The position numbers and the translations under genes were made by a program. From an uncultured bacterium (GTDB taxonomy: Bacteria > Chloroflexota > Anaerolineae > J036 > Brachytrichaceae), in assembly GCA_903921365.1 (NCBI GenBank), contig CAIXPS010000333.1:1-33813 (forward strand): a stretch of 33,813 bases of DNA, written 5' to 3'. This document shows positions 677-32,205 of this stretch, piece after piece. Position 1 is the first letter of the stretch; every line of letters starts with the position of its first letter. The notes below the pieces were generated by a model. It was not told the origin of the DNA and did no database searches. It saw only the letters and a list, made by a program, of their open reading frames with translations.

Positions 677-874
677 ATGTCAGATGACAAAGAGACTTGT
701 CGTGTTTGTGGTGGCACGGGCATATGTAGAACGTGTGGTGGTACGGGTGACGGAAAATCTACAAACCCACATCCTACACAAGGCAATACAGATTCAGAAT
801 CGGGCAATGTCAGATGTTCCATATGCAATGGCAGTGGAAACTGTGTAAATTGTGGCGGCACAGGTAAGGTATAG
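677..874 (+). CDS. small DnaJ-type zinc-finger protein (65 aa)
   Basis: This 65-residue protein consists almost entirely of four CxxCxGxG modules: C8-C11 (CRVCGGTG), C17-C20 (CRTCGGTG), C47-C50 (CSICNGSG) and C56-C59 (CVNCGGTG). A hydrophilic 20-residue linker separates the two pairs. These are the repeats of the DnaJ/Hsp40 cysteine-rich domain, which binds two zinc ions, but here there is no J domain and no substrate-binding domain. A GGTGG ribosome site lies just before the ATG. It is on the same strand as the VWA/kinase/phosphatase operon about 400 bp downstream, with that operon's own promoter in between. The same motif type forms the C-terminus of the protein encoded at 16880-18784. A zinc-dependent protein- or RNA-binding adaptor is possible; no catalytic role is visible. 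Confidence 0.75.
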   Translation: MSDDKETCRVCGGTGICRTCGGTGDGKSTNPHPTQGNTDSESGNVRCSICNGSGNCVNCGGTGKV

Positions 875-926
875 GGAAACCAATCAAGTGTCATATATGA
901 TGTCCATAACCCGAAACTGGTTTTAA

Positions 927-1097
927 CGAGAAGTTTGTTTTTGTTTTTTGGTCTATGAAACGGGTGTAATAAGGTACTCATCATTCAGCATTCGTGAAGC
1001 TATCCCGGATGAGGATATCGAGGATATCATTGATGTCATGAAACCCAAAGGCCATACTGTTGTATTATCATTGAATGACATTGCAACCAGTTTGTAG
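927..1097 (+). pseudogene. orphan protein-like reading frame, possible gene remnant
   Basis: A 57-codon stretch is open between two stops (TAA at 924, TAG at 1095). Its second half reads like real protein (IREAIPDEDIEDIIDVMK, then KGHTVVLSLNDIATSL): an acidic amphipathic helix followed by a beta-like segment. The only ATG lies deep inside, at about 1037; a TTG at 948 is possible but has no properly spaced ribosome site. It could be the 3' end of a gene whose 5' part was lost, perhaps with the nearby IS66 insertion. I do not recognise the family. It may equally be a chance frame. Confidence 0.25.
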
Positions 1098-1112
1098 GTG
1101 GAATAGTTGGGC

Positions 1113-1141
1113 TTAACAATATGTGATTCATTTCCTATAAA
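1113..1141 (+). promoter_or_regulatory. sigma70-type promoter for the VWA/kinase/PP2C operon
   Basis: TTAACA (1113-1118) and TATAAA (1136-1141) are each one base from the -35 and -10 consensus and are separated by exactly 17 bp. Transcription would start near 1148, about 130 bp upstream of the first gene of the triad. No comparable box set was found near the other operons. Confidence 0.6.
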
Positions 1142-1157
1142 GACGTAGGAATTAACT

Positions 1158-1178
1158 GCCTCTCGTTATTAGAGAGGC
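1158..1178 (+). promoter_or_regulatory. leader hairpin in the 5' UTR of the triad operon
   Basis: GCCTCTC (1158-1164) and GAGAGGC (1172-1178) form a perfect 7-bp stem with a 7-nt loop. It lies roughly 10 nt after the predicted transcription start. Only a broken T run (CTTTTTATG, about 1189-1196) follows, so it is not a clear terminator. It could stabilise the mRNA, act in attenuation or be an operator. Confidence 0.4.
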
Positions 1179-1278
1179 TTGTACCATGCTTTTTATGTTG
1201 CAGGCGTGTCATTAATTTGGCATCGTTCGATAAAGTGCAATGAGTTTTATTTCAACTATCCAGGAGAGAATTTTCACC

Positions 1279-2094
1279 ATGACTCAAATTGATACAAACA
1301 CACGTAGCCTCGGGCAGAAAGTCGAATTACTCGTTTTTTTACTTGATGGCTCCGGTAGCATGGGTAATGAGAAGGATGGCGCTAAGAACACTTATGATGG
1401 TAGAACAAAAAGTGAGCATCTCTTTGACATTGCGAAGGAGTCACTTTTTGAACTCAGCAGAAGTGATAGAAGTCCTGTGTTCCGCGTATCAATAGTTTAT
1501 TTCGCGGGTGAAGCTACGACGGAAGAAGTGGAAATCTCAGGCCAAAAAACCAAGTATTTTTATATTGATTCAGCTCTATCGGCTATCAAGAATCCATTTA
1601 GCGTGGCTAGTGGGAATGGCACTTCGATTATCAAAGCAATTGACGCGGTAGAACAAGTACTCGATCTGTTTCAAGCAGATATAGGATTACCATCACATAA
1701 GTCTGTAACAATTTTCCTCTTCACAGATGGTCAAGAGAATAATCTAATCAATAATCTGGTTGATGATTCGGTGAATCAAAAGGAACGGTGCCGCAATAGA
1801 GTTAACACACTGCGGGCTCACGCAACTTGTCCGACAATTGCGACTATCTCTCTTGGAACCGACGCGGACGAAGAGCTCCTGAAGGATATTGCAAGCCCGC
1901 CAAATCCGAATCAAATTCGTCACTTGGACATGGCAGGAGTTCTCGGAGAATTGCTTGATCAACAGAAACTATTCCTACGTGGAAATGCCCAAGGTTTGCT
2001 AACCGAAAAATCTGCGATGGCCATTCGTAGATTTGTAGATACCCTTAGCACAACTTCGGATCAACAAACTGCAACTAAACAAGAAAAGATATAG
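1279..2094 (+). CDS. TerY-like von Willebrand factor A (VWA) domain protein
   Basis: This is a single VWA domain of about 270 residues with an intact metal-ion-dependent adhesion site. DGSGSM gives D23, S25 and S27; the threonine of GNGTS is T115; FTDG gives D150. Each follows a hydrophobic beta strand (LLVFLLDG, TIFLFTDG) as in the Rossmann-like VWA fold. There is no signal peptide or membrane segment, so the protein is predicted to be cytosolic. ATG 1279 has an AGGAGAG site about 11 nt upstream; ATG 1240 in the same frame has none. It is the first gene of a tight operon with a kinase-like and a PP2C-like gene. In TerY-P triads, described with tellurium-resistance (Ter) systems, the VWA protein is thought to be the scaffold or phosphorylation target. 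No TerD or TerC gene is visible here. Confidence 0.88.
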   Translation: MTQIDTNTRSLGQKVELLVFLLDGSGSMGNEKDGAKNTYDGRTKSEHLFDIAKESLFELSRSDRSPVFRVSIVYFAGEATTEEVEISGQKTKYFYIDSALSAIKNPFSVASGNGTSIIKAIDAVEQVLDLFQADIGLPSHKSVTIFLFTDGQENNLINNLVDDSVNQKERCRNRVNTLRAHATCPTIATISLGTDADEELLKDIASPPNPNQIRHLDMAGVLGELLDQQKLFLRGNAQGLLTEKSAMAIRRFVDTLSTTSDQQTATKQEKI

Positions 2095-2103
2095 GTGATC
2101 CAT

Positions 2104-3123
2104 ATGGAAGGTACTATTGAAATAGTATCACTTACTACTGGAAAACCATCCCGGATAGACCTTTCGCGATCCATATTGAGTTTCGAGGGCAAAGAATTTA
2201 TACCTGGAGGTCAAGGTCGGCTCTATCATTGTGTGATTAACGATCTCGAAGCAGTTCTGAAGGTGATGCCAGACTTCACACCCGGCGCACGAGATATTTT
2301 TCGTCGAATGAAAAAAGTGAGAAGTAATCTTGATCGGTTCAGCCGGATTGAGCCAGCAGTATTTGCCGCACTAGAACATCGAGGATTTCCGATTGGTCAA
2401 GGCACTGCATCCGGAAATCTTTTTGGCTTTCTTACAGCCAAGGATGCATTTTTGCTGGCATATCGGTATATAGATGGACCAATGTTAAAGGTTTATCTTG
2501 CTGGAGAGCAACCATTAAGCAAAAAGCGAATAAGAACATGTGTACAGGTTGTGAGTTTACTTACGGTACTTCAAGATGCGGGTCTAGTTCATAGCGACCT
2601 ATATCCAGACAATTTCATCGTCGATAAGAGCAGAGGGGATCTAGTACTTCCAATGGATCTTGAAGGTGCAGGGGTTAAATCCTCAAATGGTTGGGACTTT
2701 ACACCAACTGTTATTGGTAAAGACTATTGGTATCCTTTACCACCAGAAATGGAGTCACACAATGGTACTTTACCCGGTCTTCCAGACGTCGGAAGTGATA
2801 CGTGGATCGGCACAGCTCTTGTCTTTTGGATATTAACTGGTTATCAGCCTTTTGAATTTTTAACTCGGGCAGATGACACTAGTATGGCACATCTCCTTAG
2901 ACTGTCTAGGCCGGAGCGAACCTGGCCACCGATGTTGCTGAAAGACATTATGTTTGAGAATCCTCACTTTACGATTAAACAGATGGCTCTTTTTATGGAG
3001 AAGTATTTTCGCGGCTGTGGTTTGGGTGCGTTTATGTACTCGACATATATCAGTTTTTATTATGAGCGACAAAAGCGTCCTCGATTTAGTATTTTAAGAG
3101 AACTGGTAAAAGGACTACTGTGA
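2104..3123 (+). CDS. Ser/Thr protein kinase-like protein of the triad
   Basis: The kinase fold carries a glycine loop (GGQGRLY, 35-41), the ATP-anchoring lysine in VLKVM (K53), a catalytic loop HSDLYPDN with D165 and N170, and DLEG (D185) in place of DFG. The key Lys, Asp, Asn and Asp residues are all present, so activity is plausible despite HSD for HRD and DLE for DFG. The C-terminal lobe (WIGTALVFWILTGYQPF) is typical of bacterial eukaryote-like kinases. There is no transmembrane helix or sensor domain, unlike PknB-type kinases. The start is ATG 2104 behind AGGTGA; an in-frame GTG sits at 2095 directly after the upstream stop. The stop overlaps the phosphatase start (GTGA), indicating translational coupling. 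Confidence 0.85.
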   Translation: MEGTIEIVSLTTGKPSRIDLSRSILSFEGKEFIPGGQGRLYHCVINDLEAVLKVMPDFTPGARDIFRRMKKVRSNLDRFSRIEPAVFAALEHRGFPIGQGTASGNLFGFLTAKDAFLLAYRYIDGPMLKVYLAGEQPLSKKRIRTCVQVVSLLTVLQDAGLVHSDLYPDNFIVDKSRGDLVLPMDLEGAGVKSSNGWDFTPTVIGKDYWYPLPPEMESHNGTLPGLPDVGSDTWIGTALVFWILTGYQPFEFLTRADDTSMAHLLRLSRPERTWPPMLLKDIMFENPHFTIKQMALFMEKYFRGCGLGAFMYSTYISFYYERQKRPRFSILRELVKGLL

Positions 3124-4271
3124 ATAATATGGATATACTCCCACCAGAGAAAAATTCGTTAGAGGTTTCATGGGTATTGAATAATGCCAAACATGGTGAC
3201 GACCAAGTCTATATAGATGAATTACCAAATGTACCAAATGTCAGCTTGTTTATTCTGGCAGATGGTGTATCAGATTCACTTGTGGGTAGGTTTGCGTCAG
3301 CATTACTAGTCCACCAGATCCAAGCGACTATTCATGAATATTTACATTCCCCAAATATGACACTGGCAAAACTTGATCAGGCAACATTACGTTATCTTGT
3401 CAGAGATGCCGTAAACAGGTTTGTAAAAGAAGCAGAGGCAATTCGTAAGAGTGAGCTTGAATATGGAGAAATAATCGCTAAACGGTCAAAGATATTGATC
3501 CAAATTGGTCAGTGTATTCAGTGTATTCAGGCTTTGGTTGATTACCAGATTCAAGTAAAACAGTGGTTTCAGAAATCACAGAACTCACAACCTCTTGTAA
3601 ATGAAAATCAGGCAGATTTAAGCACCTGCCAGGAATTTTTTAGAGAGAACAAGGAGGAAATAGCCAAAACCGAGTTGCATGATGCCTTAAGTGTTAGGCT
3701 ACGCGAAGTTCTTAACGTATTGCCATTGGGTAAAGATGAAACCCCGACAAAGGTTATAAATGATATTCGAAAGAGATTGATTACAAGTGATCCTCAGTTG
3801 TGGGATGGCAAGACAACACTCTTAGTTGCAGTGCTTATAACAGATTCGTCTGGTGATGATGCACGATTCATGACCTACTGTTTAGGTGATTCGATAATTA
3901 AAATACTGAGAAACCAGTCTACTGCTTTGGATCTTGCATGGTTCTCAGTATACGAACCTGAAGCTCGACCAAGTTTAACATCTTGGATTAGTAGTAAGGA
4001 TGGTATACACGGTAAGCCCAGTGTAAGTGAACACTGCGTTTATCAGGGAGATAACATTATTATTGCCAGTGATGGTGCCTTAATTAACTGGACAACAGTC
4101 AGTGGCGTTTCAGGTATACCTTTTAAGAATGAACTTACGTCTTGTATTAAAAAGACAAATTCCGTAAAAGGATTCGCTAATAACTGGATTCAGTACGTCG
4201 TCCACAGTACAGCAAAAGCACTAAACGACGATGCATCGCTCATCGTGGTTCGCATCACAAATAAGTCTTGA
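3120..4271 (+). CDS. PP2C-like Ser/Thr phosphatase of the triad, with large helical insertion
   Basis: PP2C metal-site motifs occur in order: ADGVSD (D48), the strand pair TTLLVAVLI and YCLGDS, SDGA (D318) and NDDAS (D370, D371), which ends the fold as in PP2C/SpoIIE phosphatases. The protein is 383 residues, against about 240 for a minimal bacterial PP2C. The excess is a helical, charged insertion of roughly 120 residues (about 95-225, containing KSELEYGEIIAKRSKILIQI) between the first aspartate motif and the central strands. The GTG start overlaps the kinase stop (GTGA) and has AAAAGGA 7 nt upstream; ATG 3129 is an alternative. It presumably reverses phosphorylation by the upstream kinase. 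The insertion may recognise the VWA partner (inference). Confidence 0.82.
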   Translation: MNNMDILPPEKNSLEVSWVLNNAKHGDDQVYIDELPNVPNVSLFILADGVSDSLVGRFASALLVHQIQATIHEYLHSPNMTLAKLDQATLRYLVRDAVNRFVKEAEAIRKSELEYGEIIAKRSKILIQIGQCIQCIQALVDYQIQVKQWFQKSQNSQPLVNENQADLSTCQEFFRENKEEIAKTELHDALSVRLREVLNVLPLGKDETPTKVINDIRKRLITSDPQLWDGKTTLLVAVLITDSSGDDARFMTYCLGDSIIKILRNQSTALDLAWFSVYEPEARPSLTSWISSKDGIHGKPSVSEHCVYQGDNIIIASDGALINWTTVSGVSGIPFKNELTSCIKKTNSVKGFANNWIQYVVHSTAKALNDDASLIVVRITNKS

Positions 4272-4661
4272 TGCTTCTTTATATCGGAAAGCATAGGAAT
4301 TTCAAAACCCCTGATTGTTTGTTAAACATTGATGCCTCCTATCACTTTCGCAGAAGGAGCATGCCTTCACCAATTAAGTATTGCTTCAAATAAACAAAAT
4401 GCGTAGCAAGTACAAGCTTGCAACAAGGTTTTGTATGCATCAGAACTGAATTCTTATACTTTTATAGTAGTCGGTGCATCACGCTAAATACCTTGTTTTC
4501 AGGCATATCATGATCAGAACAGTTGTTTCACGAAAACGAGGAATGTTAACCACGAATTTCTTCAGTTTTCGGACTTCACTAACAGAAGCTTGGATAGCCA
4601 TTCAACACATTAACTGCTGTTAAGTGCTACCTAGTCATACAGTCTAATGCCGTTGACGTAA
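4272..4661. other. convergent intergenic region, no gene seen
   Basis: This 390-bp AT-rich stretch separates the plus-strand triad from the converging minus-strand operon. Just after the phosphatase stop, ATGCTT (about 4271-4276) pairs with AAGCAT (about 4289-4294). An imperfect hairpin ATGCCTCCT / AGGAGCAT lies at about 4331-4366. Neither has a T run, so they are weak terminator candidates. No coding stretch, tRNA or long repeat was found. Confidence 0.4.
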
Positions 4662-4835
4662 CTATATTTGCCACTTACTTTCATAGAGCTGAATCACATC
4701 AAGCACCTTATCTATGGCGCGTTCTGCGTTCTGCCTGGAGTAAGCTAACTGTTCCCTCGCTTCAACGATTTCACTTTGTAGGGTTACCGATTCTTCCATG
4801 TCATTCCCAATAAATGGGCGTTTCACGCTATTCAT
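4662..4835 (-). CDS. small coiled-coil hypothetical protein
   Basis: This protein of about 57 residues is dominated by one heptad-rich helix (VTLQSEIVEAREQLAYSRQN and onward). It contains no cysteine when read from 4835, no membrane segment and no known motif. It is the last gene of the minus-strand operon. The start chosen is ATG 4835, which overlaps the preceding stop (ATGAATAG); ATG 4856 in the same frame is possible, and neither has a good ribosome site. It may be an oligomerisation or adaptor peptide for the preceding gene product. The family is not recognised. Confidence 0.5.
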   Translation of the reverse strand: MNSVKRPFIGNDMEESVTLQSEIVEAREQLAYSRQNAERAIDKVLDVIQLYESKWQI

Positions 4836-5451
4836 CTGAGGAAGTTTGCACCTCATTAGCAGTCGGATTTACCCTGGTGTATCGATATCGTGATCGGAAT
4901 GACCACAAAGACTTATAGGAGCCGTCATACACTTCTGGATCTTCATACCCGCCAACACGATAAACTGCTTTCTCCTTCAGTTCTATTATCGGTGTATAAA
5001 TACCGTCAATCTCGATTTTGGTGTCACGCTCTATCTCGTCGATATATAAAATAACCCTGGCTAAGCCTTGATCAAGCAACCACGTAATTACGTTTCTGAA
5101 TGCGGCTTCAATAGAAGCAGCGTTCATATCGACGGCAACTTCATTTTTATCCTCAGTGAAACCAGAGTTTCTCGCGTATATGTGTAACTCACACCCACGT
5201 GACGAACACTGCACAAAGGTAGCCATTTTCACGTGTGGATCCCCATACTCGCCACCAAGATTACAATCCAGTAGAAACATGGGAGTCGCAACATCAATGG
5301 CACTATATGGAGTCTCAGTTACTTCACCCCTGCCGCTAAAAAAGTCTTCATTTACTGCCTGAATATACGAATGAATCATTGGTCTGTACTGACTCCAGAA
5401 CCGCTGCACAGATTGCTGTTCGTTAGGCCTTAAGTCAATGAATGGTCCCAT
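4828..5451 (-). CDS. hypothetical protein, 207 aa
   Basis: This is a mixed alpha/beta soluble protein that I do not recognise. It has an N-terminal helical segment (QQSVQRFWSQYRPMIHSYIQ), a central strand-rich part (MFLLDCNLGGEYG; KMATFVQCSSRGCELHIYA) and a helix-strand unit (NVITWLLDQGLARVILYIDE). The acidic end overlaps the next gene. AGGAG lies about 10 nt before the ATG. A 200-bp gap upstream, the only sizeable gap in this strand's gene run, suggests that this gene and the one after it may also have their own promoter. No signal peptide or catalytic motif is visible. Confidence 0.65.
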   Translation of the reverse strand: MGPFIDLRPNEQQSVQRFWSQYRPMIHSYIQAVNEDFFSGRGEVTETPYSAIDVATPMFLLDCNLGGEYGDPHVKMATFVQCSSRGCELHIYARNSGFTEDKNEVAVDMNAASIEAAFRNVITWLLDQGLARVILYIDEIERDTKIEIDGIYTPIIELKEKAVYRVGGYEDPEVYDGSYKSLWSFRSRYRYTRVNPTANEVQTSSDE

Positions 5452-5651
5452 GTTCTGTTAACTCCTACAAATGTTTCGCAAGATATATCCCCATACACAC
5501 TAATTCGCAGTGATAATCACAGTAATAGACGCTATTAAATACACTTTTATGGGTGACTCTGGCTGCAATCTGACATGTTGCGTACTATCGAGTCAATGAA
5601 ACCTCATCACTGCCACGCCACGGTGTAAGTGTCGTATCTATTAACATAATT

Positions 5652-6266
5652 CTATTCGATGCTCAAAACATCAACCAGCCCACAGTTCTGGGTAGCTATC
5701 TTCCGCAATAATCCATGCCGTACTAAAAACGCCTGTTGGCATTCAGCCGACGAGATTCTAATTCCGCTTCCTGGGATACTAGCTTTTTGTGCGGCCAAGT
5801 CAAAAAGACTACTAATCCTAGCATGTCTAGAAAGAAAGTCGAACAAACCCAGATGTGCCTTTGCGTGCTCGGGTGGGAAGAAAATGGATGGGGCACGGGC
5901 ATAGGGTATTGCCTTTTTATCGGCGGGGCTTAGTGCGCGCATCCAGTCTACTAGTACATACATCAATGCCAAGTAAGCTCGCGCCCGTGGTACCTCCCTT
6001 GTACCATCTATTGTCCAAACAAGATCGGGGTTGAGTCTATTTCCTCGGTAATGTAATTCCTCAACGATACCTTGGACGCGATCGCAGAGCAGTGTGTAGC
6101 GCCGATGTTCATTGCGCAAGTTAACCTTTTTATCGAACCTGCGCTCGATAGCCAGGGCATCCTTCACAGCTATAGCCAATGCTGAAAGATCAGGCAGTTC
6201 GGTACATCCATTATTCCAAATCTCAGCAGATATGGAAAACGAACTAATCTGTGTATCGATTGGCAT
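5652..6266 (-). CDS. hypothetical protein, 204 aa
   Basis: The family is not recognised. The sequence is largely helical with basic patches (AIERRFDKKVNLRNEHRRYT) and a tryptophan-rich centre (LALMYVLVDWMRALSPADKK). The C-terminal helices look like a winged-helix or all-alpha domain, but no definite motif is seen. The start at ATG 6266 has a strong GGAGGA site 5 nt upstream and overlaps the preceding gene by 23 bp; a longer start at 6290 lacks this support. Overlap and spacing place it firmly in the operon with 6244-7440 and 7437-8132, which suggests stoichiometric co-expression. There is no membrane segment. Confidence 0.65.
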   Translation of the reverse strand: MPIDTQISSFSISAEIWNNGCTELPDLSALAIAVKDALAIERRFDKKVNLRNEHRRYTLLCDRVQGIVEELHYRGNRLNPDLVWTIDGTREVPRARAYLALMYVLVDWMRALSPADKKAIPYARAPSIFFPPEHAKAHLGLFDFLSRHARISSLFDLAAQKASIPGSGIRISSAECQQAFLVRHGLLRKIATQNCGLVDVLSIE

Positions 6267-7440
6267 TCTTCTCCTCCATATCGCTCTCATCGACCTGAGC
6301 AGCTGTAACGGATAAACTATATTCGGATTCGGCTAGTAATTGTGACATGGTAAGTCCAATGACAATCACAAATAGACCATGTTGTTTTGCCTCTGTTATG
6401 TACGATTTCCTATCAATCTCGTTCAAATAGATAAAGTCCAGTGGTACAACTAATACGGGTTTACACTGGTGAATATGTTTTAGAGCACGAGCAAAGTCGT
6501 GTTTGCGTCGGTCAAATAACGAGGCTGTAGAGTGCGCCAGAACTGGAATCAGGCAGAAACGTTGACCAGGTTCAATATCAACAAACGAGTCCGTGTCAAT
6601 CTGACTCGGTTCTTGAGGGTCAGGGACCACAAGACGATGTACACACCAGTATTGCATATCGCCCGCATCTCTTTTACTCTCGATGCGTTTACCCATACTT
6701 ACGCCCATCTTACGATCTGCTAAACGATAAAGCGCATAGTCTTCAAGCAGTGCTGATCGTAAATGATTCGACAGATGCACATACGTCAATGGTGTTTGTA
6801 CAACATCAGGTCGATTTTTGAATATCCAACTCAACCGAATACCGCGTTCAATTAATGACTTTATCAACCCCGGCGACCAGTTTCCGCGATACGTGTTAAA
6901 ACATACTAATTCCACAGGAACATCGTCTTCCGCCATTGCTGCCTGCATTTCTTCAGGAAATTCCGACAAGGCAGCATATAAACGTTTTACCAGATCAGCC
7001 TTCAGTAGTGTGTCATGACCAGGAATTCGGTCACCTAGACAATCCTCGATCAAATAACGTACATCGTACGGAATCCCTTGTTCAAAGAAAAGATCCATTG
7101 TGCCGCCTGCCTGATATGCCTGACTACTTAGCATAATCATCATCACTCGGGTAGGCTCCATTGCTTTGAATATCGGGTGTTCTCCGGTGAAATATGCCCG
7201 GATTTCCAGTCGGCGATTCTGACGATTGAAACGGTGAGTAGCGACACCTACGATTACATCTCTTGACGCAAAACGGTATGTAGACCAGTCATCTCTACCT
7301 GGGGGTTTCCCGCCTTTCTCGTTCCAAGGAGAATTGAGCACTGCGTCAAGATAAACCACATGTGGATCAGAGACTATAAATTCTGTATCCGCTTCAGTTG
7401 TCCTTTGGTTGCTATGACGTATGACTTGTTTAACACTCAT
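6244..7440 (-). CDS. hypothetical protein, 398 aa
   Basis: No family is recognised. A strand-rich first half (VVYLDAVLNSPWNEKGGKPP; VIVGVATHRFNRQNRRLEIR) leads into a helical middle (LLKADLVKRLYAALSEFPEE). A C-terminal alpha/beta part follows (KPVLVVPLDFIYLNEIDRKS; HGLFVIVIGLTMSQLL), whose alternating strand-helix pattern could be a Rossmann-like or Toprim-like unit, but no catalytic signature is clear. The start is ATG 7440, overlapping the preceding stop as ATGA, with GGAG about 10 nt upstream; this fixes the start better than an in-frame ATG at 7464. It is co-translated with its neighbours, probably as part of one complex. Confidence 0.65.
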   Translation of the reverse strand: MSVKQVIRHSNQRTTEADTEFIVSDPHVVYLDAVLNSPWNEKGGKPPGRDDWSTYRFASRDVIVGVATHRFNRQNRRLEIRAYFTGEHPIFKAMEPTRVMMIMLSSQAYQAGGTMDLFFEQGIPYDVRYLIEDCLGDRIPGHDTLLKADLVKRLYAALSEFPEEMQAAMAEDDVPVELVCFNTYRGNWSPGLIKSLIERGIRLSWIFKNRPDVVQTPLTYVHLSNHLRSALLEDYALYRLADRKMGVSMGKRIESKRDAGDMQYWCVHRLVVPDPQEPSQIDTDSFVDIEPGQRFCLIPVLAHSTASLFDRRKHDFARALKHIHQCKPVLVVPLDFIYLNEIDRKSYITEAKQHGLFVIVIGLTMSQLLAESEYSLSVTAAQVDESDMEEKNANRYTD

Positions 7441-8132
7441 GGGTTTATGACTCCAGCGCCCCATACAGTTTTGGGCAAGGGAAGTCCTCCATCTTTGTTA
7501 TGACCGAAAATAGAGGCTATACGCATGGGACCAAGTCCCTTTGTATTACGTTCTACCAAATGCTCAACTACAGCCCGATATAAGCCAACTTCCAGAGGCT
7601 CCAGACCAGTCTGCAGGATTGTTATGTAGAACTCACCGTTAAGCTGAGGTGTTTTTAGGAGACGCTGCATTTCATCGTAAGCGAGCCTATCAACGTCCCC
7701 TTGACGAAGTTGTCGTGTCTCTTTGTCTCGCAGCAAATAGAGATCGGCATATTGATCATAGGACACGTGGCGCAGGCTAAGTGTGCCTACTCGTAGATGC
7801 AGATTATCCTTCGGCTGCCACGCCCACCCATTTTTAGGTTGCCATAAGGCATGTACTGGAAACTTCATACCTCGTGAACCATCACTGTATTCGATGCGTA
7901 AATCACCTTTATCGCCTGGCGCAAACACTAATCTATGTAGCGCAATGGTTGTTTCCACATGAGGAGGGACACTCAGGTTCACAGGTGTGTCTGTTCGTAT
8001 ATGCTCTTCCATCTCTAGTACGAGACGATTTACCCTATCGATGAGATGACTGCGCTCAATGTGTAAAGATGGAAGATTGGTGGATAAGTGTTCTGATGAC
8101 GGTGCTTCATCCACCTGTTGTTGCTTACTCAT
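7437..8132 (-). CDS. hypothetical protein, 231 aa
   Basis: This soluble protein of unknown family lies directly downstream of the DEAH helicase gene, whose stop it overlaps (ATGAGTAA, 8 bp). It has an N-terminal helix (SHLIDRVNRLVLEMEEHI), a beta-rich centre (LRIEYSDGSRGMKFPVHALW; LHLRVGTLSLRHVSYDQY) and a helical part near the C-terminus (LEVGLYRAVVEHLVERNTKG). There are no cysteines and no catalytic motif. The coupled start suggests production in fixed ratio with the helicase, so a helicase cofactor is a reasonable guess. Confidence 0.65.
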   Translation of the reverse strand: MSKQQQVDEAPSSEHLSTNLPSLHIERSHLIDRVNRLVLEMEEHIRTDTPVNLSVPPHVETTIALHRLVFAPGDKGDLRIEYSDGSRGMKFPVHALWQPKNGWAWQPKDNLHLRVGTLSLRHVSYDQYADLYLLRDKETRQLRQGDVDRLAYDEMQRLLKTPQLNGEFYITILQTGLEPLEVGLYRAVVEHLVERNTKGLGPMRIASIFGHNKDGGLPLPKTVWGAGVINP

Positions 8133-12186: not shown

Positions 12187-12200
12187 TGTTGATGCTCCAG

Positions 12201-12530
12201 TTAATTCTTTGGTGATTCAATCAGGGATAACCACGCTGTAAGAATCTCTCGCAATTCATCGAGTGAAAGTTCAGTTGTTATGGGGGGGGTGGCGAACTCA
12301 GACTCAACACGTGCTTTATCAGAAGCTAAAATGAGAGTAAAAGCATTACCCGTACCTTGCCAATATGGTATGTTGCCTGCCTTTACCAAGTCTATTAATC
12401 GAATTAATTCATTAATCCATTGGGGGTTGCTCTGTACATCGCCCTCAAGATACCAACTGATGGCTTTATTGTCAGGGGTGGTTTTAGCTCTAGGATAGCC
12501 ATCACTATCTTGATAAAGTTCTATTTCCAT
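12201..12530 (-). CDS. probable immunity protein to the Rhs-EndoU toxin
   Basis: This 109-residue, acidic, cytosolic protein is encoded 28 bp downstream of the Rhs toxin gene, the standard position of a cognate immunity gene. It contains MEIELYQDSDGYPRA, the segment AISWYLEGDVQ, a WINELIRLIDLV helix, a GTGNAFTLIL strand and a C-terminal helix LSLDELREILTAWLSLI. The overall pattern (short strand, D..G motif, W.., GN..TL, C-terminal helix) reminds me of the YacL/UPF0231 type of small proteins. That is recollection, not a search result. Its role would be to bind and block the EndoU domain inside the producer and its sisters. The DEAH helicase gene follows after 14 bp. Confidence 0.72.
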   Translation of the reverse strand: MEIELYQDSDGYPRAKTTPDNKAISWYLEGDVQSNPQWINELIRLIDLVKAGNIPYWQGTGNAFTLILASDKARVESEFATPPITTELSLDELREILTAWLSLIESPKN

Positions 12531-12558
12531 ATGCCATCTATTCTCTCTATCTGTGGTT

Positions 12559-16860: not shown

Positions 16861-16879
16861 AGTGATGATTCCTCAAAGG

Positions 16880-18784
16880 CTAAAACGATATAGTCTGGGA
16901 TTGTTTCTGACCTTTACATGCACATGAACTTATCCGTGTACCATTACATGTTGGACACTGAACATAACCTCGCGAGCAGTGGCAAAACACTTCACTTTGT
17001 CCATGACAAGTAGCGCAATTCCATAATCCACTGCCTGCTGGTATACACTTTTGGCATTTTCCACTTCCATTACACACCTTGCAGATACCGCCACCTGCCC
17101 AGCGTCCATTTGTGCAATGTTGGCATTTTCCTGTTCCTGCGCACCTACCGCATGTAACTTTACCTTTTCTACAGTCGGGTACTGGGCATTGCAGTTTCTG
17201 TGTTCCATGGCACTCAGGACAGGCAATTTGGCCTTTCCCAGCGCAGGTTGTGCATATTCGATGTGTAGTTCCAAAGCAAGCCGAACATCCACCGCTCTTT
17301 CGATAGTTATTCAGAACGCTTATAAACAACTTTCCATCACTGCTTTTTGTGCATAAAGCAAGTGTTCCTGCGGTCACAGGCTCGCGAACTGACCAAATAA
17401 GTATTTCGCCTGTAGTAGGATTGACAATACGAGTATTCAACCCACCACTATATTCGAAGGACTCCAGTACTACACCCAAATACTCTGGGTGGCTGTAAAA
17501 AAAAGCGTCTACAATTTCAGCTCGCTCCTGGGGTGTCCACCTAAGACTTGGCAGATTGAATGGTATATTTAGCTTCTTGCCATCCTTATCAATGACTTGA
17601 TCTACATAGTAGGCAGTATCACTGTCGAACACGTCTCTTTTGATTTTCAGCATTCCTAATGCGCTAAGTAATATGCCATTGTTCCCAAAACTGTATCCTG
17701 TGACCGCTCTTGTCATTGCACTTCGTTTTTGGAACGTTCTTGCCACCTCATTTACGACATCGGGCGTTACGGTTAGGTCACTACTTAGAGATGAGGAATT
17801 TAGCTTATGAATAAAAATGCAGCTACCAATTTTCTTGCTTTCTCGTCCATATTTTTCCCATCGGCAATGACCTTCTGCGGTGATCACCCGGTAACCACGA
17901 TCAACTTGCACTTCTGTTGCAACACCAATTGCCAAGCCATCAGATCCTAATGCCAGTTGCCCCATCATATCCACCATGTCTGAAGATTCACGCGCTGCAA
18001 ATGGCAGGATATACATTTGCTCCACTTCGTAGGGTTCCTCAGTGTTGTAGACCACTACCGTTCGGTGACCTGGCCGCCGTGTGAGTTGCCACACATCCTT
18101 ATATGCCTGTGGGTCATCTCGATTCAGCACATCGCCTAAATCGTATGGCACAATGAATGGCTTCTGATCCTTCTCCCGATCAAGAGCGATGAAACCAGAA
18201 TACCGATAATTGCTATCGTTTTTTACTGGACGATAAAGGATTGTGCCGATTGCGAGTTCCCGACCTGATTTGCGCGGCAGTCCATTCAGTGCAACTATTT
18301 TTTCACGAAGCTTACTAAAAGCATCCTGCTGGTTTACACCTTCTTTCATATTAGCGAAGAAATCATCATCGGATAGCTTGAGTAATTCGCGCAGGTTGCC
18401 ATCTTGTAGATTTGTGCTGTTTAGTATCAGTGCTTGACCCAACAGAACAGCTATCGGATATTGGCTGCAATTGCGTAATGCGGTTTCGGCAAGTGCATTG
18501 ATCTCAGCGCGTACTGATTGATGAAGTAAACGGAGGATGCAAGCAATCCCTTCAAACCTCCCATTTTGTGCAAGCGCAATAGCAGAATGCAACTGCATCA
18601 ATATCATTTGCGGATCAGCAGTTTCAGCCACCTCCAGCGCTTGTTGCAATTGATTTCTGGCAGAAGATTGATCGATCTGGCGCACGCGGTAATATAGAGA
18701 CCCTATCCGCTCGACCGGTGAATATCCCACGTCTAGGAAGTTTATGGTTCTGAATCTCTCATTTAAACCAATCTTTATTGCCAT
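16880..18784 (-). CDS. 634-aa protein with C-terminal DnaJ-type zinc-finger array
   Basis: The first 490 or so residues form an unrecognised soluble region: helical repeats at about 40-150 (NQLQQALEVAETADPQMILM) and then an alpha/beta region. The last 135 residues (about 500-630) are packed with CxxC modules: CSACFG, CTTCAGKG, CPECHG, CGRCAGTG, CQHC, CKVCNGSG, CQKC, CATCHG, CPTCNG and CACKG. Several are CxxCxGxG modules as in the DnaJ cysteine-rich domain, although there is no J domain. At least eight modules are present, against four in DnaJ. The start has AAGG 5 nt upstream, and the gene lies 18 bp after its upstream neighbour. The C-terminus resembles the free-standing 65-residue protein at 677-874. 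A zinc-dependent scaffold or nucleic-acid binder is likely; an enzyme is not evident. Confidence 0.75.
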   Translation of the reverse strand: MAIKIGLNERFRTINFLDVGYSPVERIGSLYYRVRQIDQSSARNQLQQALEVAETADPQMILMQLHSAIALAQNGRFEGIACILRLLHQSVRAEINALAETALRNCSQYPIAVLLGQALILNSTNLQDGNLRELLKLSDDDFFANMKEGVNQQDAFSKLREKIVALNGLPRKSGRELAIGTILYRPVKNDSNYRYSGFIALDREKDQKPFIVPYDLGDVLNRDDPQAYKDVWQLTRRPGHRTVVVYNTEEPYEVEQMYILPFAARESSDMVDMMGQLALGSDGLAIGVATEVQVDRGYRVITAEGHCRWEKYGRESKKIGSCIFIHKLNSSSLSSDLTVTPDVVNEVARTFQKRSAMTRAVTGYSFGNNGILLSALGMLKIKRDVFDSDTAYYVDQVIDKDGKKLNIPFNLPSLRWTPQERAEIVDAFFYSHPEYLGVVLESFEYSGGLNTRIVNPTTGEILIWSVREPVTAGTLALCTKSSDGKLFISVLNNYRKSGGCSACFGTTHRICTTCAGKGQIACPECHGTQKLQCPVPDCRKGKVTCGRCAGTGKCQHCTNGRWAGGGICKVCNGSGKCQKCIPAGSGLWNCATCHGQSEVFCHCSRGYVQCPTCNGTRISSCACKGQKQSQTISF

Positions 18785-18802
18785 TGTTACCTTATCCCCC
18801 TG

Positions 18803-21004
18803 TCACTTTACTTGCTCGATACGAACTGAGAGTACATTGCCACTGTGCACCTCGCTTACCACCCGTGCCTGACGTTGCGACAGCGAGCTAAGTGACAGAA
18901 TTGAGTTTAGCAAAGGTGGTGCCCAGCGGAATAGTTCGACCTGATAAGTTCGATTATCGGCTCTCAAGTAAACCATATGATCACGTTTCTCTAGCATCTG
19001 CAACAAGTCTCTTTTGTCGTTGCCACTAGACATTCCCGCGGCTGAGGTCAGACGCTGCCGAGATTTATCCGACATTTGGCTAATTGCTAACTGTGCGCAT
19101 GTAACACATTTCCCGCCCTGTGAGCAACAGTGACGGCAGTAGCTCATGCCACAATCAGTACACTTGTTTTGCTCCGCACTACAATCGCTTGAGTTGCATG
19201 ACAGGAGGCCACACCCTGCACAGCGTGGTGCATGGTCTGCATGAGTCCGGCACAATCGAGTCTTGCCGCATATCTGACACGTCACTCCATGATCACTACA
19301 AATCTCCTTATGGCATGTGACGCATGTAGTAAGGTCAGCCTTCAAATAGCTGACAGTAGAGGAGCACAGAGAACACGTTTTACGATGCGTATCGCACACA
19401 CGTTGAGCTGTATGCAGCTTCGGCTGTGAACTATGTTTCTCGCAGACCGACTTACCGCACTCAATACAATGAAAGCGATGTTTCGGGTCTTGGCAGAGAA
19501 TTTCGCGCGAATCCACACAGCACCTTGCTAGACGTGATAGGGCAAAAATACGTTTACAGCAAGTAGTTTGTGCGCCGTGATCCCGGCACACCCAAGTTCC
19601 TTCCGCAGTAGCCAAACCATGTGAACGGCAAGTTGTCTCATGGCAGTCTTGGCATTCAAACCCATCCGGCTTAGCACCCGGAATGGTGCATATTCGCTCG
19701 TGACCAATGCGGCAGGTGCGTAAGTGTTGGTGAGCGAACGGCCTGTGACACACGGCGCAAAGTTCATAACAGTCGTGACACAATAGCTTGCCTTCGAAGC
19801 TGGGGGTCAGGCACGTAGGGCAAAAGTAAGTCCCTTTTTTATGTGGCCCATAAGCACACTCACCATGATCATCACAACATACCGGTGCACTGCAGTGGGT
19901 GCATTTCCCTCCATGGTCAGAGCACATGGAATCACCACATACACTACAGTCAAGTAACGCAGATGAACAGTCTGCGCACTGAACGTGGCTTCCTACCAGG
20001 CAGGTGTTGAAATGCTTGTGCCCACCGCACTTTGGACATGTCGACCAATTGACACGTCCAAGACGTGAATCGTAGGGAATTTCCGGTAAGAAAAGTTTTC
20101 TACGCTTTCCCGTGATTGTAATGTTGTAATTGATCACCGGCCACCATAGTTGCAGAACTGAAAGCAAGCTAACGCTCGTGCGACAGGTGTATTTCCGCTC
20201 AATATCCTGGATATATTTACTATGCCATTCGGCCAGCATCCGCTGGCCCTCGACATCGCCATGCCATAAACTGGTTAACTTCTCTTGGTAATTCTTCTCT
20301 GCCTCCTGGCGGTCTCTTTCTAGAATTCGGTGCATTTCTTTACCAACAGTTTGTAAATCCGGGAGAATACGCCGTTCAATTTCTTTCCGTGCAGAGGTCA
20401 ACACTTTGTCGAGATCGATACAACTCACAGATATGCCAGATTGCGGCATACTTTCCGTACTCAGCAAGTTATCTAGGCGCAGCAGCAACTCGGGGCGAGG
20501 CGCACCTGTTTGGCCGTCATATGCTAGCCGGACTATATTCTCTGATTGTTGGTCACTTCGATAAATGACACGATACGTCAGGATAAAGCTCGGTAAATAG
20601 TGCCATGCGTAGCTAATCTGTTGCCGACTGTTCATGCCTAAGACTAGAGACATGCCGGGAACATCGTGTTCACCGAACGCAGATATTGGCTGCAATTCGC
20701 CATAAGCCACTGCAAGACGCGGGTTGCATTGGGAATCCCGCTCCAAATCATTGAGAATTACGTCAAAGTAACGATGACCCGCACTTACCAGCTCTCCCCG
20801 TGGGTATAAAGACAGCATGTTACTGTCGAAAACCAGGGTAATAACTTGACGGTTTGACCCGCCGGAACCGAATAGCTGGCATGCGGTTGAAGTTATGAGT
20901 TCCACCCGGTATACGCCTGAAGCAATGTAGGACACAGAAGTATCATGGCGTTGACGGAAATAACCTACTACAACTTGCTCGATTTGCGCCTGCTTAGATG
21001 CCAT
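18803..21004 (-). CDS. 733-aa protein with very large treble-clef/B-box-like zinc-finger array
   Basis: Residues about 1-250 are strand-rich and unrecognised, followed by a charged helical segment (RILERDRQEAEKNYQEKLTS). Residues about 320-635 are a continuous Cys/His array: CPKCGGHKH, CADC, CSVCGDSMCSDHGGKC, CPTC, CHDCYELC, CQDCHETTCRSHG, CCKR, CIECGKSVCEKH, CSLC, CVTCHKEICSDHGVTC, CQICGKTRLCRTH, CAGCG and CTDCGMSYCRHCC. The recurring CxxCxxxxCxxH unit resembles B-box, LIM or FYVE-like treble-clef fingers and is tandemly duplicated roughly a dozen times. The final 100 residues are again non-cysteine (YLRADNRTYQVELFRW). There is no RING signature with full spacing, so ubiquitin-ligase activity is not claimed. 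AAAGG lies 5 nt before the ATG. It is expressed between the SNF2 fusion and the DnaJ-type finger protein. Confidence 0.75.
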   Translation of the reverse strand: MASKQAQIEQVVVGYFRQRHDTSVSYIASGVYRVELITSTACQLFGSGGSNRQVITLVFDSNMLSLYPRGELVSAGHRYFDVILNDLERDSQCNPRLAVAYGELQPISAFGEHDVPGMSLVLGMNSRQQISYAWHYLPSFILTYRVIYRSDQQSENIVRLAYDGQTGAPRPELLLRLDNLLSTESMPQSGISVSCIDLDKVLTSARKEIERRILPDLQTVGKEMHRILERDRQEAEKNYQEKLTSLWHGDVEGQRMLAEWHSKYIQDIERKYTCRTSVSLLSVLQLWWPVINYNITITGKRRKLFLPEIPYDSRLGRVNWSTCPKCGGHKHFNTCLVGSHVQCADCSSALLDCSVCGDSMCSDHGGKCTHCSAPVCCDDHGECAYGPHKKGTYFCPTCLTPSFEGKLLCHDCYELCAVCHRPFAHQHLRTCRIGHERICTIPGAKPDGFECQDCHETTCRSHGLATAEGTWVCRDHGAQTTCCKRIFALSRLARCCVDSREILCQDPKHRFHCIECGKSVCEKHSSQPKLHTAQRVCDTHRKTCSLCSSTVSYLKADLTTCVTCHKEICSDHGVTCQICGKTRLCRTHADHAPRCAGCGLLSCNSSDCSAEQNKCTDCGMSYCRHCCSQGGKCVTCAQLAISQMSDKSRQRLTSAAGMSSGNDKRDLLQMLEKRDHMVYLRADNRTYQVELFRWAPPLLNSILSLSSLSQRQARVVSEVHSGNVLSVRIEQVK

Positions 21005-21043
21005 TCTTTGCCTTTGAATAGAGTGTTTTCGCTAATAAACTGC

Positions 21044-23917
21044 CTACATATTTTCTTCAGGGGACTTGAAGAGCCGGCTCAATCCGCCTTCCTGTTTTGC
21101 GCGTTCCTCGGCATTACCAATAACCTCAATAATGTATTCCTTCTCGCTTATCTGACGTCCATCCAGTGACTCTTGATGTTGGTCCATAAAGAGATCAAAG
21201 GACATTGTGCGAAAGTCCTCAGCCTTGCTTAAACTACCAACAATTTCGTCAACTTCACCAATCACCGCCTCGAACATTCGCAACTTTTGTTCAAGGATCT
21301 GGATAATATCCTCTTCAATCGTATCGGTGAGGATCAGGTTGTAGATCAGTACCTTGTCAAATTGGCTATTTAACCGTTGAATGCGGCCGATGCGCTGCTC
21401 TATTTTCATGGGGTCCCAAGGAAGGTCAAGGTTGATCATCACATTGGCAAACTGCAGGTTCACACCTTCGCTCATTTCTCCAGGACAGAACAGTACGCCA
21501 GAGGTACACCCAACAAACTTACTCATCGATTCTGCGTTAACAGTATGTCCTTTCTTCTCATCGTAAAGATAGAGATGGTTGCCAAAGTAGGTATCCTCAT
21601 ATAGCCTCGCTGCATATTTGCATGCATACTGAGTAGTTTCATTGAATAGAGAGAATATGAGAACCTTATTGCCATTAGCCACTTCTTGAAAGGCAATCTG
21701 GAGCGCTTTATCCAATTTGGGTTGGACTAGGTCGTTAGGATAAGTGCGTACAAATTCCAGCAACTCATCCAGGAAAGCCGGCCCAAGGTGACGTCGTATG
21801 ACATTGTCGCTTTCGTTAACACCTGTGACAAATGCTTGTTTACTGCTAATCAGTCGTTCTACTAACTCACCCATGTAGGTATAGACGAAAGCTAGATTGT
21901 CAGTGTCATTTAGATACTTTTTGTAAAACTCGCGGAAATCCTGATAATACCTGTAAGCACCAGGGGAGGTTCCTTGAAGATCAATGGCGATGCGCTGCGC
22001 ATTTCTTTCTGGGAAGTGGTAACCGCGACCTTCAGCGTTCTCGTATCGCTTTATGACATCTTTGCGCCGATTGCGCACCATAACTTGCTGAAGGGCGCCT
22101 CTCAGTTTGGCTGTGTTATCTTCTTTTAATCCACTAGGGCTTTTAGAATCCACGTACTCTCGATCGAACTCTTCCTTGGATGGGAAGTAGCCAGGCCTTA
22201 GCAATGTCACAATCTTATAAAGCTCATGAATATCATTGTGCATGGGTGTGGCCGATACGAGCAAGAAATACTTCTTGCGAAGATTCTGAATAATGCGCAG
22301 TGTTTTCTCGTTTTTAGGTTCATTGAGGTAGTGAGCCTCATCCAGAATAACAAGGTCATACTGATGTTGTAGCAATTCCTCCGAGTGGAAGCGCTGCTCC
22401 AGTATTGAGTATGGCGCAATGAGCCTTTGGCAGTGCCAGGCCAAGCTGGTGTCGATGTTCATGTGCATGACGAGGAAAACCTCGTTAAACTTCTCATATA
22501 GTTCAGATTGCCACTGAGTCAACAGGGTGGGTGAAGACGGACAGAAGATCAGAACGTTTTCAACAAGTTTACGCTGTAACAGTTCCTTTATGATCATGCC
22601 GGCTTCGATTGTCTTACCAAGGCCTACTTCATCAGCTAGCAACCCCCGTCCGCGCATATCATGCAATATTTTGAGCGCCGCTTCTTGCTGATGTGGTAAC
22701 TTTTGTACTTCTGATAACCCATCCAGGCAGATTAACGTGTCAAATCCCGGATCAGACTGCAATTCATCCAATTGCTCTCGAAAGCGGAAATTGGGCAAAG
22801 GCGCAAAACGATGATCTTTGTAATCTGATAAAAGACGATGATGAACATTCTCATCGTAGACTATTATGGGCGGCGAATCGACGAATTCTTCTTCTGTTGT
22901 TGGGTGCATGAGCTGACCGCAACGAACACAAAATCGTGCACTGGATCGATTGGATTGACCACAAACGCAAGTGATTTCGTCTGCAATTAGGCTGTTATTC
23001 CTATCCAACTCTTCTAGTGACTTTAGCACTTCATCCATATTGGCGTATGGTTGCGTAGCATCTATCTGACAACTCAGTGCGATATTAGCTAGTGCTGATT
23101 TCCGTCGATTGGGTTCACCTGATATGGTGCGCAGACTCTCAATTTGATGGGGAGATACCACTTCGATGCCGGTTATAAGCAGGCCGAGTAGTCGTCCAAA
23201 GGCTACGAGGTCGTCTTGTGGAGATGGTGGTTGATCAATAACCTCACTATGCGTGGCTATATAGCTACGAGGGATACCAAAATCCATTAACTGGAAATCA
23301 CCTGCACTGGTTATAACTACCGCGTCAGGTCCTATATGGCCATGTGTGATCGGATATGGGTTCTGTCGGTGAAGTAGAACCAAGGCTTCAGCCAGTTGTG
23401 TTGCCCAATACCAAATATGGTCCGCGTTAGGCAATCCCCTATTCGAATCAATCCACTGCTGGATCGATGTACCGTCGACCTGAGCATATACGAAGTTTAG
23501 GCTCTGCCTATCCTTGAAGTAATCATCCAAGCTAGGAAGCGCCACATGTTTTAGATGCTGCAACAGCTTGCCTTCTTCGTTAAACAGCATATCCAGAATA
23601 GCAAGCGAGGAATCGTATTCAATACGTCGAAGTACATATTGCTTGCTATCCCGTCTCACCAGGTAAGCAGTGTAGTAACCATAAAGGGCGGGGAGCGACG
23701 ATATGACTTTGTAATGGCCTAACCATTTTTCAGGCTCCTCTGGAAGTGGGGGTTGCTTGACAATGCTGCTTTCCGGAGATTCTGTGGTTTTTGCCGGTAA
23801 GTCAACAATGTGTTTCTTCTCAGCTTCCGAACCAGGCAGCTGGGTTCCGCACCTACTACAGTTTTGTGGTGTAGTTTCTAGTAAGTAATCTAGTTCACAA
23901 ACTGGGCATTTTGCCAT
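21044..23917 (-). CDS. zinc ribbon - pseudokinase - zinc ribbon - SNF2/RapA-like helicase fusion
   Basis: The order is: zinc ribbon CPVC (4-7) and CSRC (20-23); linker; protein-kinase fold about 60-310 with HGHIGPD (about 191-197) in the catalytic loop and an intact DFG (about 211); second zinc ribbon CVCG...CVRCG (314-332); SNF2 ATPase about 400-900. SNF2 motifs are DEVGLGKT (near 430), DEAH (near 525), SATP (near 552), GEMSEGVNLQ and QRIGRIQRL (near 838). The HRD aspartate is replaced, so the kinase part is probably inactive or acts as an ATP/phosphoprotein sensor. SNF2 proteins of the RapA type translocate on double-stranded nucleic acid and remodel protein complexes. The start is ATG 23917; a TTG four codons upstream is possible. 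It is the first gene of the eleven-gene minus-strand run. Confidence 0.9.
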   Translation of the reverse strand: MAKCPVCELDYLLETTPQNCSRCGTQLPGSEAEKKHIVDLPAKTTESPESSIVKQPPLPEEPEKWLGHYKVISSLPALYGYYTAYLVRRDSKQYVLRRIEYDSSLAILDMLFNEEGKLLQHLKHVALPSLDDYFKDRQSLNFVYAQVDGTSIQQWIDSNRGLPNADHIWYWATQLAEALVLLHRQNPYPITHGHIGPDAVVITSAGDFQLMDFGIPRSYIATHSEVIDQPPSPQDDLVAFGRLLGLLITGIEVVSPHQIESLRTISGEPNRRKSALANIALSCQIDATQPYANMDEVLKSLEELDRNNSLIADEITCVCGQSNRSSARFCVRCGQLMHPTTEEEFVDSPPIIVYDENVHHRLLSDYKDHRFAPLPNFRFREQLDELQSDPGFDTLICLDGLSEVQKLPHQQEAALKILHDMRGRGLLADEVGLGKTIEAGMIIKELLQRKLVENVLIFCPSSPTLLTQWQSELYEKFNEVFLVMHMNIDTSLAWHCQRLIAPYSILEQRFHSEELLQHQYDLVILDEAHYLNEPKNEKTLRIIQNLRKKYFLLVSATPMHNDIHELYKIVTLLRPGYFPSKEEFDREYVDSKSPSGLKEDNTAKLRGALQQVMVRNRRKDVIKRYENAEGRGYHFPERNAQRIAIDLQGTSPGAYRYYQDFREFYKKYLNDTDNLAFVYTYMGELVERLISSKQAFVTGVNESDNVIRRHLGPAFLDELLEFVRTYPNDLVQPKLDKALQIAFQEVANGNKVLIFSLFNETTQYACKYAARLYEDTYFGNHLYLYDEKKGHTVNAESMSKFVGCTSGVLFCPGEMSEGVNLQFANVMINLDLPWDPMKIEQRIGRIQRLNSQFDKVLIYNLILTDTIEEDIIQILEQKLRMFEAVIGEVDEIVGSLSKAEDFRTMSFDLFMDQHQESLDGRQISEKEYIIEVIGNAEERAKQEGGLSRLFKSPEENM

Positions 23918-24080
23918 GTGGAGTCTCAATGTTGTTACTTAGTGTTGACACAAACTGCAGGAGTGACACCCGTAGGATCAGATGCTCATATTGTGTTAGG
24001 TGTAAGTTTTCTATTACAACGTACACCAACTTTCCTATTAGTCTGATCTATTCCATTCCTGCTGTTTGTGGACTTGGATT

Positions 24081-29833: not shown

Positions 29834-29840
29834 CCCCTCA

Positions 29841-29862
29841 CAGCAGCTTGGTGAGCCTGCTG
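29841..29862. repeat. bulged hairpin after the large helicase gene
   Basis: CAGCAG (29841-29846) pairs with CTGCTG (29857-29862), extended inward by CT/AG across a one-base bulge. It lies 8 bp after the stop codon. No T run follows. Confidence 0.4.
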
Positions 29863-29873
29863 GTAGTCCCGAA

Positions 29874-29906: not shown

Positions 29907-29940
29907 CAAGCAGCGACGATGCAGGTATAGGAGGTAATCA

Positions 29941-31038: not shown

Positions 31039-31046
31039 GGAGACAT

Positions 31047-32204: not shown

Positions 32205-32205
32205 A

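Follow-up and report, generated by a model that had tools for sequence, protein, structure and literature searches.

A conserved DEAH-S1 helicase module with tagged, exchangeable cargo in the genome of an uncultured Chloroflexota bacterium

SAVED folds, which are fused pairs of CARF-like halves, bind cyclic oligonucleotides, S1 domains bind RNA, SUKH is an immunity fold that neutralises nuclease toxins, and conflict systems use EndoU and NS_2 domains as toxins. RHS, EndoU and NS_2 are typical parts of secreted polymorphic toxins (PMC3482391). TerY-P triads, in which genes for a TerY-like VWA protein, a kinase and a PP2C phosphatase are adjacent, accompany CoCoNuTs, which are helicase/nuclease systems (PMC11090510), and actinobacterial GAP1-N2 systems (PMC7159879). 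The window analysed here is one entire contig of 33.8 kb from an uncultured member of the Chloroflexota, whose draft genome totals 6.9 Mb. It carries such a triad on the plus strand (1240-4271), convergent with a tightly packed minus-strand operon. The operon contains an SNF2 helicase with a zinc-finger-array partner (module A) and a DEAH-box helicase with conserved partners and a tagged, exchangeable cargo (module B). We rate as about even the chance that module B is an intracellular conflict system that keeps hold of an exchangeable toxin through the tag as long as no trigger is detected.

Module B shares exchangeable bodies, EndoU and NS_2 nucleases, an RHS shell (in the window) and the SUKH immunity fold with polymorphic toxin systems, but its constant part is a tag of ~10 residues rather than a secretion domain, and its partners are DEAH-S1 and SAVED-like proteins. 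Interchangeable effectors on a constant sensor/NTPase core recall the nucleoside triphosphate (NTP)-dependent conflict systems with effector-associated domains (EADs) (PMC7159879); in contrast to these, module B gave no match to MoxR, STAND, VMAP or GAP1, and a short linear tag replaces the folded EAD. The motor resembles HrpA-type DEAH RNA helicases (~30% identity over the helicase core), although it has its own N-terminal zinc-finger-like region, an S1 tail and conserved partners. Module B fails as CBASS, CoCoNuT, DISARM/Dpd or classical polymorphic toxin, and literature searches, with partial coverage, found no description of it.

When the DEAH and 406-amino-acid (aa) proteins of the window were used in tblastn searches, both led to one Streptomyces plasmid region. 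On Streptomyces and Paenarthrobacter plasmids, a homolog of the 406-aa protein, a protein that ends like the window's 231-aa protein and a DEAH-S1 helicase are encoded consecutively. Searching 84,980 species genomes for the 231-aa family yielded 33 loci, in 33 further genomes, from Chloroflexota, Proteobacteria, Patescibacteria, Planctomycetes, Actinobacteria and one methanogen. The order in nearly all 33 loci is 406 family, mid and DEAH-S1 helicase, mid being a 350-430-aa protein equivalent to the 212- and 231-aa proteins of the window fused; with a cargo gene in front, this order recurs in all the phyla named and on the two plasmids. The 406 family is itself fused to mid in three loci (L051, L061 and L062), and the helicases measure 870-2060 aa. 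Module B is conserved as a unit separate from module A, and mid and the core of the 406 family represent two families without a Pfam model that keep their order over several phyla. Homologous genes that are weakly DUF3800-like lie immediately past the DEAH helicase at L040 (8055-9776), L041 (12761-13462) and L047 (15463-17706).

The mid family was absent from phage records and IMG/VR scans, and a phage origin of module B was dropped on this ground. Two copies are plasmid-borne, one of them on a conjugative plasmid, and integrases and a recombinase domain occur near some loci. These features would suit an addiction (toxin-antitoxin-like) module of mobile elements, in which SUKH and the scaffold neutralise the toxin, loss of the element kills, and the helicase and SAVED-like protein adjust expression. 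Genes as big and costly as those of the helicases are, however, unusual for addiction, and the mid family occurs in only 2 plasmid records vs. 33 genomes; we regard this explanation as unlikely. Known defence genes (mads, IetS, Cmr4/6, LmuA, Avs1a and HEC-07) are found in some module B flanks, which is consistent with a role in defence but does not prove one. In the methanogen, four minus-strand genes beside module B (L053, 9118-12480) probably account for the Cmr4/Cmr6 type III CRISPR matches.

The gene that precedes the 406 family varies in body from locus to locus and has a similar start (MGC.., MACG.., MSQxCC.. or MPxGCN..), as in MGCTLHITEKD, MGCFLCMTERD, MGCNNHPTPKD, MACGNNHVSR, MSQACCKIPSNED and MPDGCNLFETK. 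The regular expression M.{0,3}[GA]C, with any start codon within the first 75 codons accepted, matched 24 of 29 neighbours and 12 of 273 other open reading frames (ORFs; 4%) in the same loci. Read by hand, the tag is present in 27 of 28 evaluable loci. The hand-read cases are L045 (MSQCCG), four loci with the cargo on the opposite strand (L054, L056, L060 and L065) and L059, where it overlaps the predicted start; at L040 the contig end cuts the gene. The tag was found and counted on the same loci (the discovery set and two plasmids), and a Fisher test on the counts treats related loci as independent. An out-of-sample test on 396 actinobacterial genomes gave no further module copy.

After removal of the first 20 residues, the cargo bodies sorted into 13 groups that share no similarity with one another, and these 13 unrelated bodies are a sounder argument for the tag than the Fisher test. 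Pfam identified two of the groups as nucleases, EndoU in L056 (2e-12) and Endonuclea_NS_2 in L060 (2e-10), and further bodies appear by eye to contain PD-(D/E)xK-like strings. Variable C-terminal bodies sit on a constant N-terminus, as in polymorphic toxin systems, and only some of the bodies are recognisable toxins. With the tag as a guide, unknown toxins can be sought by sequence, in whatever follows MGC or MACG next to module B. Actinobacterial tagged cargoes of 130-155 aa (L052, L057, L058, L064, L066 and L027), Pfam-less where scanned, share an HVHVIH..ITDR-like pattern and possibly represent a new toxin or target domain. At L037 a second tagged ORF (11043-11432, minus strand; MSQCCGKIPTPDD) lies between the mid and DEAH genes on the opposite strand.

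The first-pass annotation had left the gene at 12.6-16.9 kb of the window as of unknown kind, and likewise the small gene after it. In the larger product Pfam found RHS repeats and, at the C-terminus, an EndoU domain (PF14436, 91.6 bits against a cut-off of 25.3); the small one is a 109-aa UPF0231-like protein. The RHS protein starts with MACGKESTGADAG at the first possible start codon, with the tag MACGKES encoded at 16860-16840 and a good Shine-Dalgarno sequence, TGAGGAA, upstream. The presence of a toxin in mid-operon is explained by this tag and by the clustering of the protein with the EndoU cargo of L056. The protein is best read as a module B cargo in which an RHS shell separates the tag from the nuclease.

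RHS, EndoU and NS_2 parts, together with a candidate immunity gene after the window toxin, would also be expected of a secreted polymorphic toxin used in interbacterial competition. The tag would then be an export or membrane-anchor signal, SUKH and the 109-aa protein would be immunities, and the helicases would aid expression or maturation. Pfam scans of the cargoes, however, revealed no trafficking or secretion domain, and the window RHS protein has only ~30 residues before DUF6531. Three of the four module genes look intracellular, and an archaeal genome and small genomes of Patescibacteria also contain the module. Secretion is unlikely on balance.

The folds of the two partner families were modelled. 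For a 412-aa mid protein (AlphaFold with 25 sequences; predicted local distance difference test, pLDDT, 85), the 24 best PDB entries were all SAVED (Z 7.1-8.6, 4.0-6.8 Å over 137-218 residues). They included Cap4 (Z 8.6), a viral SAVED ring nuclease (8.5), Cap5 (up to 8.4) and CalpL (7.6 over 209 residues), and below the SAVED entries came CARF-type Csm6 (Z 6.4) and then the first unrelated fold (5.4). The model of the 406-family member of L034 (540 aa, pLDDT 91) has an N-terminal SUKH domain (Pfam 3e-15, Z 19), a GNAT-like middle (Z ~6) and a C-terminal region resembling PD-(D/E)xK restriction endonucleases (REases; XisH 2inb Z 8.5, Card1 Z 7.7). A SUKH region is present in 24 of 28 family members, and SUKH was detected by sequence (PF09346/14567/14568) in 11 of 24.

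Module B could work as follows. The cargo, an exchangeable and often nucleolytic body whose N-terminus bears the short tag M-(x)-[GA]-C, would be produced in the cell and kept silent by docking of the tag to the pair formed by the SUKH/GNAT-like/REase-like scaffold and the SAVED-like protein, with the nuclease masked by SUKH or by a separate immunity protein. The DEAH-S1 motor, which is RNA-helicase-like, may survey RNA or ribosomes, and the SAVED-like fold may bind a signal, either a nucleotide or a protein. Infection or another trigger would free the toxin, which would cut RNA or DNA and halt the cell or the invader. The window version would use an RHS-caged EndoU RNase as cargo, the 109-aa protein as immunity and the SAVED-like protein as two subunits. 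The tagged cargo looks like an undescribed way to keep a toxin ready inside the cell, and the tag could be moved to a reporter if it is a docking or modification site.

The eukaryotic GNAT-fold N-myristoyltransferase acts on MGC proteins. By analogy, the [GA]-Cys tag might be an anchor that carries a covalent modification, with the scaffold's GNAT-like domain acylating or acetylating the N-terminus or the cysteine and so tethering any tagged toxin to the helicase/SAVED-like complex or the membrane until the signal arrives. We consider this version quite unlikely; if true, such a tag would be a prokaryotic effector-loading code unlike any described, spread over bacteria and archaea.

Several observations weigh against a tag-held intracellular toxin, or against parts of that proposal. 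(i) L050 is the sole evaluable locus without a tagged neighbour. (ii) Several cargo bodies (L034, L044 and L046) are not recognisably toxic, and known defence genes are a minority of the flanking genes. (iii) The mid protein has no Pfam match, PF18145 was matched by 0 of 25 members at E<=10, and an hhalign comparison of mid with 16 Pfam-SAVED regions from the same phylum gave a probability of 0.1; a PDB sequence search with the mid profile also found nothing. SAVED membership by sequence is unsupported. We name mid SAVED-like by its predicted fold only, because the profile comparison with SAVED sequences was empty, and a Z of ~8 is close to the level of a chance best match. (iv) Neither the GNAT-like nor the REase-like domain shows clear catalytic motifs: E401, D402 and D491 are conserved in the C-terminal region, but there is no conserved (D/E)xK column, and the acetyl-CoA loop of the GNAT-like domain is not conserved. 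GNAT catalysis was dropped on this account, and only the fold is claimed. (v) SMODS (PF18144) is missing from 32 of 35 genomes or records, the window's own genome included, in a search that covered PF18144 and no other CD-NTases. With this synthase missing in most genomes, the search points to no nucleotide signal. The mid protein resembles the CBASS receptors Cap4, Cap5 and CalpL in predicted fold; unlike them it has no fused effector, and CBASS membership was rejected on the SMODS counts.

The window copy of module B is arranged as at no other locus. Its DEAH-231-406-212 order has the mid gene split and the halves permuted, and its 406-aa protein has no SUKH domain and is without several conserved residues, W430 and R539 among them. 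Taken at face value, these features would describe a decaying, rearranged remnant with a broken SAVED-like gene. Against this, every frame is open and the genes abut or overlap. The helicase, which the first-pass annotation had recognised as a DEAH-S1 protein and in which Pfam also found the S1 domain, keeps its motifs intact (GPTGSGKS, DEAH, SAT and QRWGRAGR). The 212-aa protein matched mid proteins of other loci in BLASTP (L043 3e-13, L047 2.5e-12 and L034 2.5e-9). The split falls at about residues 151-217 of intact homologs, where AlphaFold leaves 181-209 disordered, so that the break lies within a disordered linker. We read the two halves as a working split rather than decay because all twelve of twelve invariant mid-family columns are kept across them. 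A true remnant looks different, with one partner and a helicase without motor (G342/L038). Decay is very unlikely on this evidence, and the split SAVED-like protein would be a natural two-subunit form. That SUKH is lost where a small protein of its own follows the toxin would agree with SUKH being the part that normally confers immunity, the 109-aa protein being the putative immunity to EndoU by its position. In Ktedonobacterales, L038/L032 (3093-6995) consists of a mid C-terminal half and a motor-less helicase, with the 406 family and the tagged cargo absent.

Module A was analysed in the same way. Its motor had been annotated as an SNF2-pseudokinase fusion, and this reading holds because HGH stands for HRD in the N-terminal kinase-like domain. 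The zinc-finger array ascribed to the next protein was also confirmed by the cysteine counts (Table 1). Residues 22-638 of this partner are homologous to a 1095-aa protein of H. tiamatea (3.5e-20) that is encoded directly after an SNF2 gene on a Halorhabdus plasmid. Residues 8-383 match the partner of an SNF2 gene in G040, a genome from the window's class (5e-10), with a 4-bp overlap between the genes, and the SNF2/partner pair is present in a second genome of the window's phylum. An SNF2 gene followed by a hypothetical gene is also found on Haloarcula, Halobiforma, Nostoc and Oscillatoria plasmids. The pair recurs without the triad and without the DEAH module, and the zinc ribbon and pseudokinase of the window SNF2 protein are additions to it. 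At E<1e-40 the SNF2-kinase protein had no relative in 23 module B genomes.

The module A motor is placed by sequence in the RapA/DrmD/DpdE branch, yet far under the cut-offs of these families. It scored 183 bits in the equivalog test for DrmD (cut-off 950) and 195 bits in that for DpdE (cut-off 500). The motors of DISARM (DrmD), Dpd (DpdE) and BREX (BrxHI-HII) and RapA belong to the same SNF2 branch; unlike DISARM, Dpd and BREX, module A reaches 168-195 bits where 500-950 are required, and a coiled-coil zinc-array partner replaces their gene set. Loci with an SNF2/partner pair (L005 12638-17655, L028 4074-6843, L029 11923-14863, L091 7172-10824, L092, L120, L121 and L123) come from plasmids of haloarchaea and cyanobacteria and from the phylum of the window. 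Some of the partners have a coiled coil and zinc arrays, and the pair is a candidate system of its own.

The triad was recognised from the start as a VWA/kinase/PP2C set convergent to the operon, and all three Pfam families were matched on the plus strand, in adjacent genes as in TerY-P. The kinase has the HxD....N motif, with DLE at the DFG position. By sequence, the Pfam scan found no zinc ribbon or OB family in it. PADLOC models gave no match to the VWA or PP2C protein, in a library that may not cover the branch concerned. DnaJ-type fingers had been reported on both sides, but the scan found neither a DnaJ-type finger nor a zinc ribbon in the triad proteins. Among 300 genomes of its own phylum the kinase had only generic kinase matches, and a plasmid search with the PP2C protein gave no match.

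The operon and the triad had been proposed to form one phospho-regulated stress or defence system that would include the SNF2 and zinc proteins and the DEAH module. The genes are adjacent and convergent, and TerY-P triads accompany helicase/nuclease systems elsewhere (CoCoNuTs, PMC11090510; actinobacterial GAP1-N2, PMC7159879). What stands of this proposal is a set of conserved partners in conserved order with conflict-like genes: the homologs of the DEAH, 231-, 406- and 212-aa proteins form their own module in 33 genomes and 2 plasmids. The flanks of these copies, scanned up to 10 kb from the mid gene and less on short contigs, contained no homolog of the triad, the SNF2-kinase, the zinc-array protein, the DnaJ-finger protein or the RHS core, except for a lone kinase match at L034. 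PP2C_2 matches in module B genomes are on other contigs or hundreds of kb off, assuming that contig numbers follow accession numbers. CoCoNuTs resemble this arrangement in that their helicase systems adjoin the VWA/kinase/PP2C triad in other genomes (PMC11090510); in contrast, the operon proteins have no McrB, McrC or HEPN Pfam family, and the triad is unlinked elsewhere. No other locus was found that links either module to the triad, or the modules to each other, in the flanks, the phylum sample or the plasmids. The composite was dropped as very unlikely. The triad is real but separate from the operon, and module A and the triad are neighbours of module B, not its components.

Ten minus-strand genes were counted between 4828 and 23929, in place of the eleven first annotated. 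The run extends from 23929 to 4828, with neighbours that overlap or lie 14-39 bp apart as far as 5652 (Table 1).

Table 1. Genes of the minus-strand operon and the convergent triad in the 33.8-kb window.
Coordinates	Strand	Feature	Evidence or remark
21044..23929	-	Module A: SNF2/RapA-like helicase with N-terminal zinc ribbon and pseudokinase	SNF2 3e-31, Pkinase 1e-9; Pfam/NCBIfam/PADLOC
18803..21004	-	Module A partner: N-terminal region, coiled-coil-like segment, zinc-finger array	57 Cys, 16 CxxC
16880..18784	-	Unknown 470-aa N-terminal region and DnaJ-type zinc fingers, 634 aa	CxxCxGxG-like fingers
12559..16860	-	Module B cargo (best reading): RHS repeats, C-terminal EndoU (~12568-12945)	PF05593 8e-60, PF14436 7e-26, PF20148 (DUF6531) 6e-17
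12201..12530	-	109-aa UPF0231(YacL)-like protein, putative EndoU immunity	PF06062 8.3e-9; 28 bp after toxin
8125..12186	-	Module B: DEAH-box helicase, N-terminal zinc-finger-like region, C-terminal S1 domain(s)	Pfam; module homologs
7437..8132	-	Module B: SAVED-like-fold protein, C-terminal half (231 aa)	Aligns to residues 188-404 of unsplit homologs
6244..7464	-	Module B: GNAT-like/REase-like-fold protein (406 aa), SUKH absent	Most homologs have N-terminal SUKH
5652..6290	-	Module B: SAVED-like-fold protein, N-terminal half (212 aa)	Aligns to residues 2-151 of unsplit homologs
4828..5451	-	Unknown-function protein, 207 aa; operon end or separate gene	No family at meaningful E-value
1240..2094	+	VWA protein, metal-ion-dependent adhesion site (MIDAS) DGSGS	PF00092 8e-11; outside modules A and B
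2095..3123	+	Ser/Thr kinase-like protein	PF00069 3.5e-5, under family cut-off; outside modules A and B
3120..4271	+	PP2C phosphatase	PF13672 1.9e-6; outside modules A and B

The DnaJ-type finger protein between module A and the cargo gene had been correctly described, and its CxxCxGxG-like fingers are present. Among 60 relatives and the 300-genome phylum sample, only DnaJ-finger matches were obtained and no full-length homolog turned up, and the protein is for this reason assigned to neither module. Searches with it gave no homolog of its 470-aa N-terminal region. The plus-strand block at 24653-33760 is phage- or mobile-element-like and includes an AAA_24 ATPase and an HNH protein. It also encodes a DarB-like methylase-helicase of 1726 aa that matches phrog_10089 and is at least 80% covered by 46 phage records. 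At the other end of the window (2-535, minus strand) lies the N-terminal part of an IS66-type transposase, truncated at the contig end.

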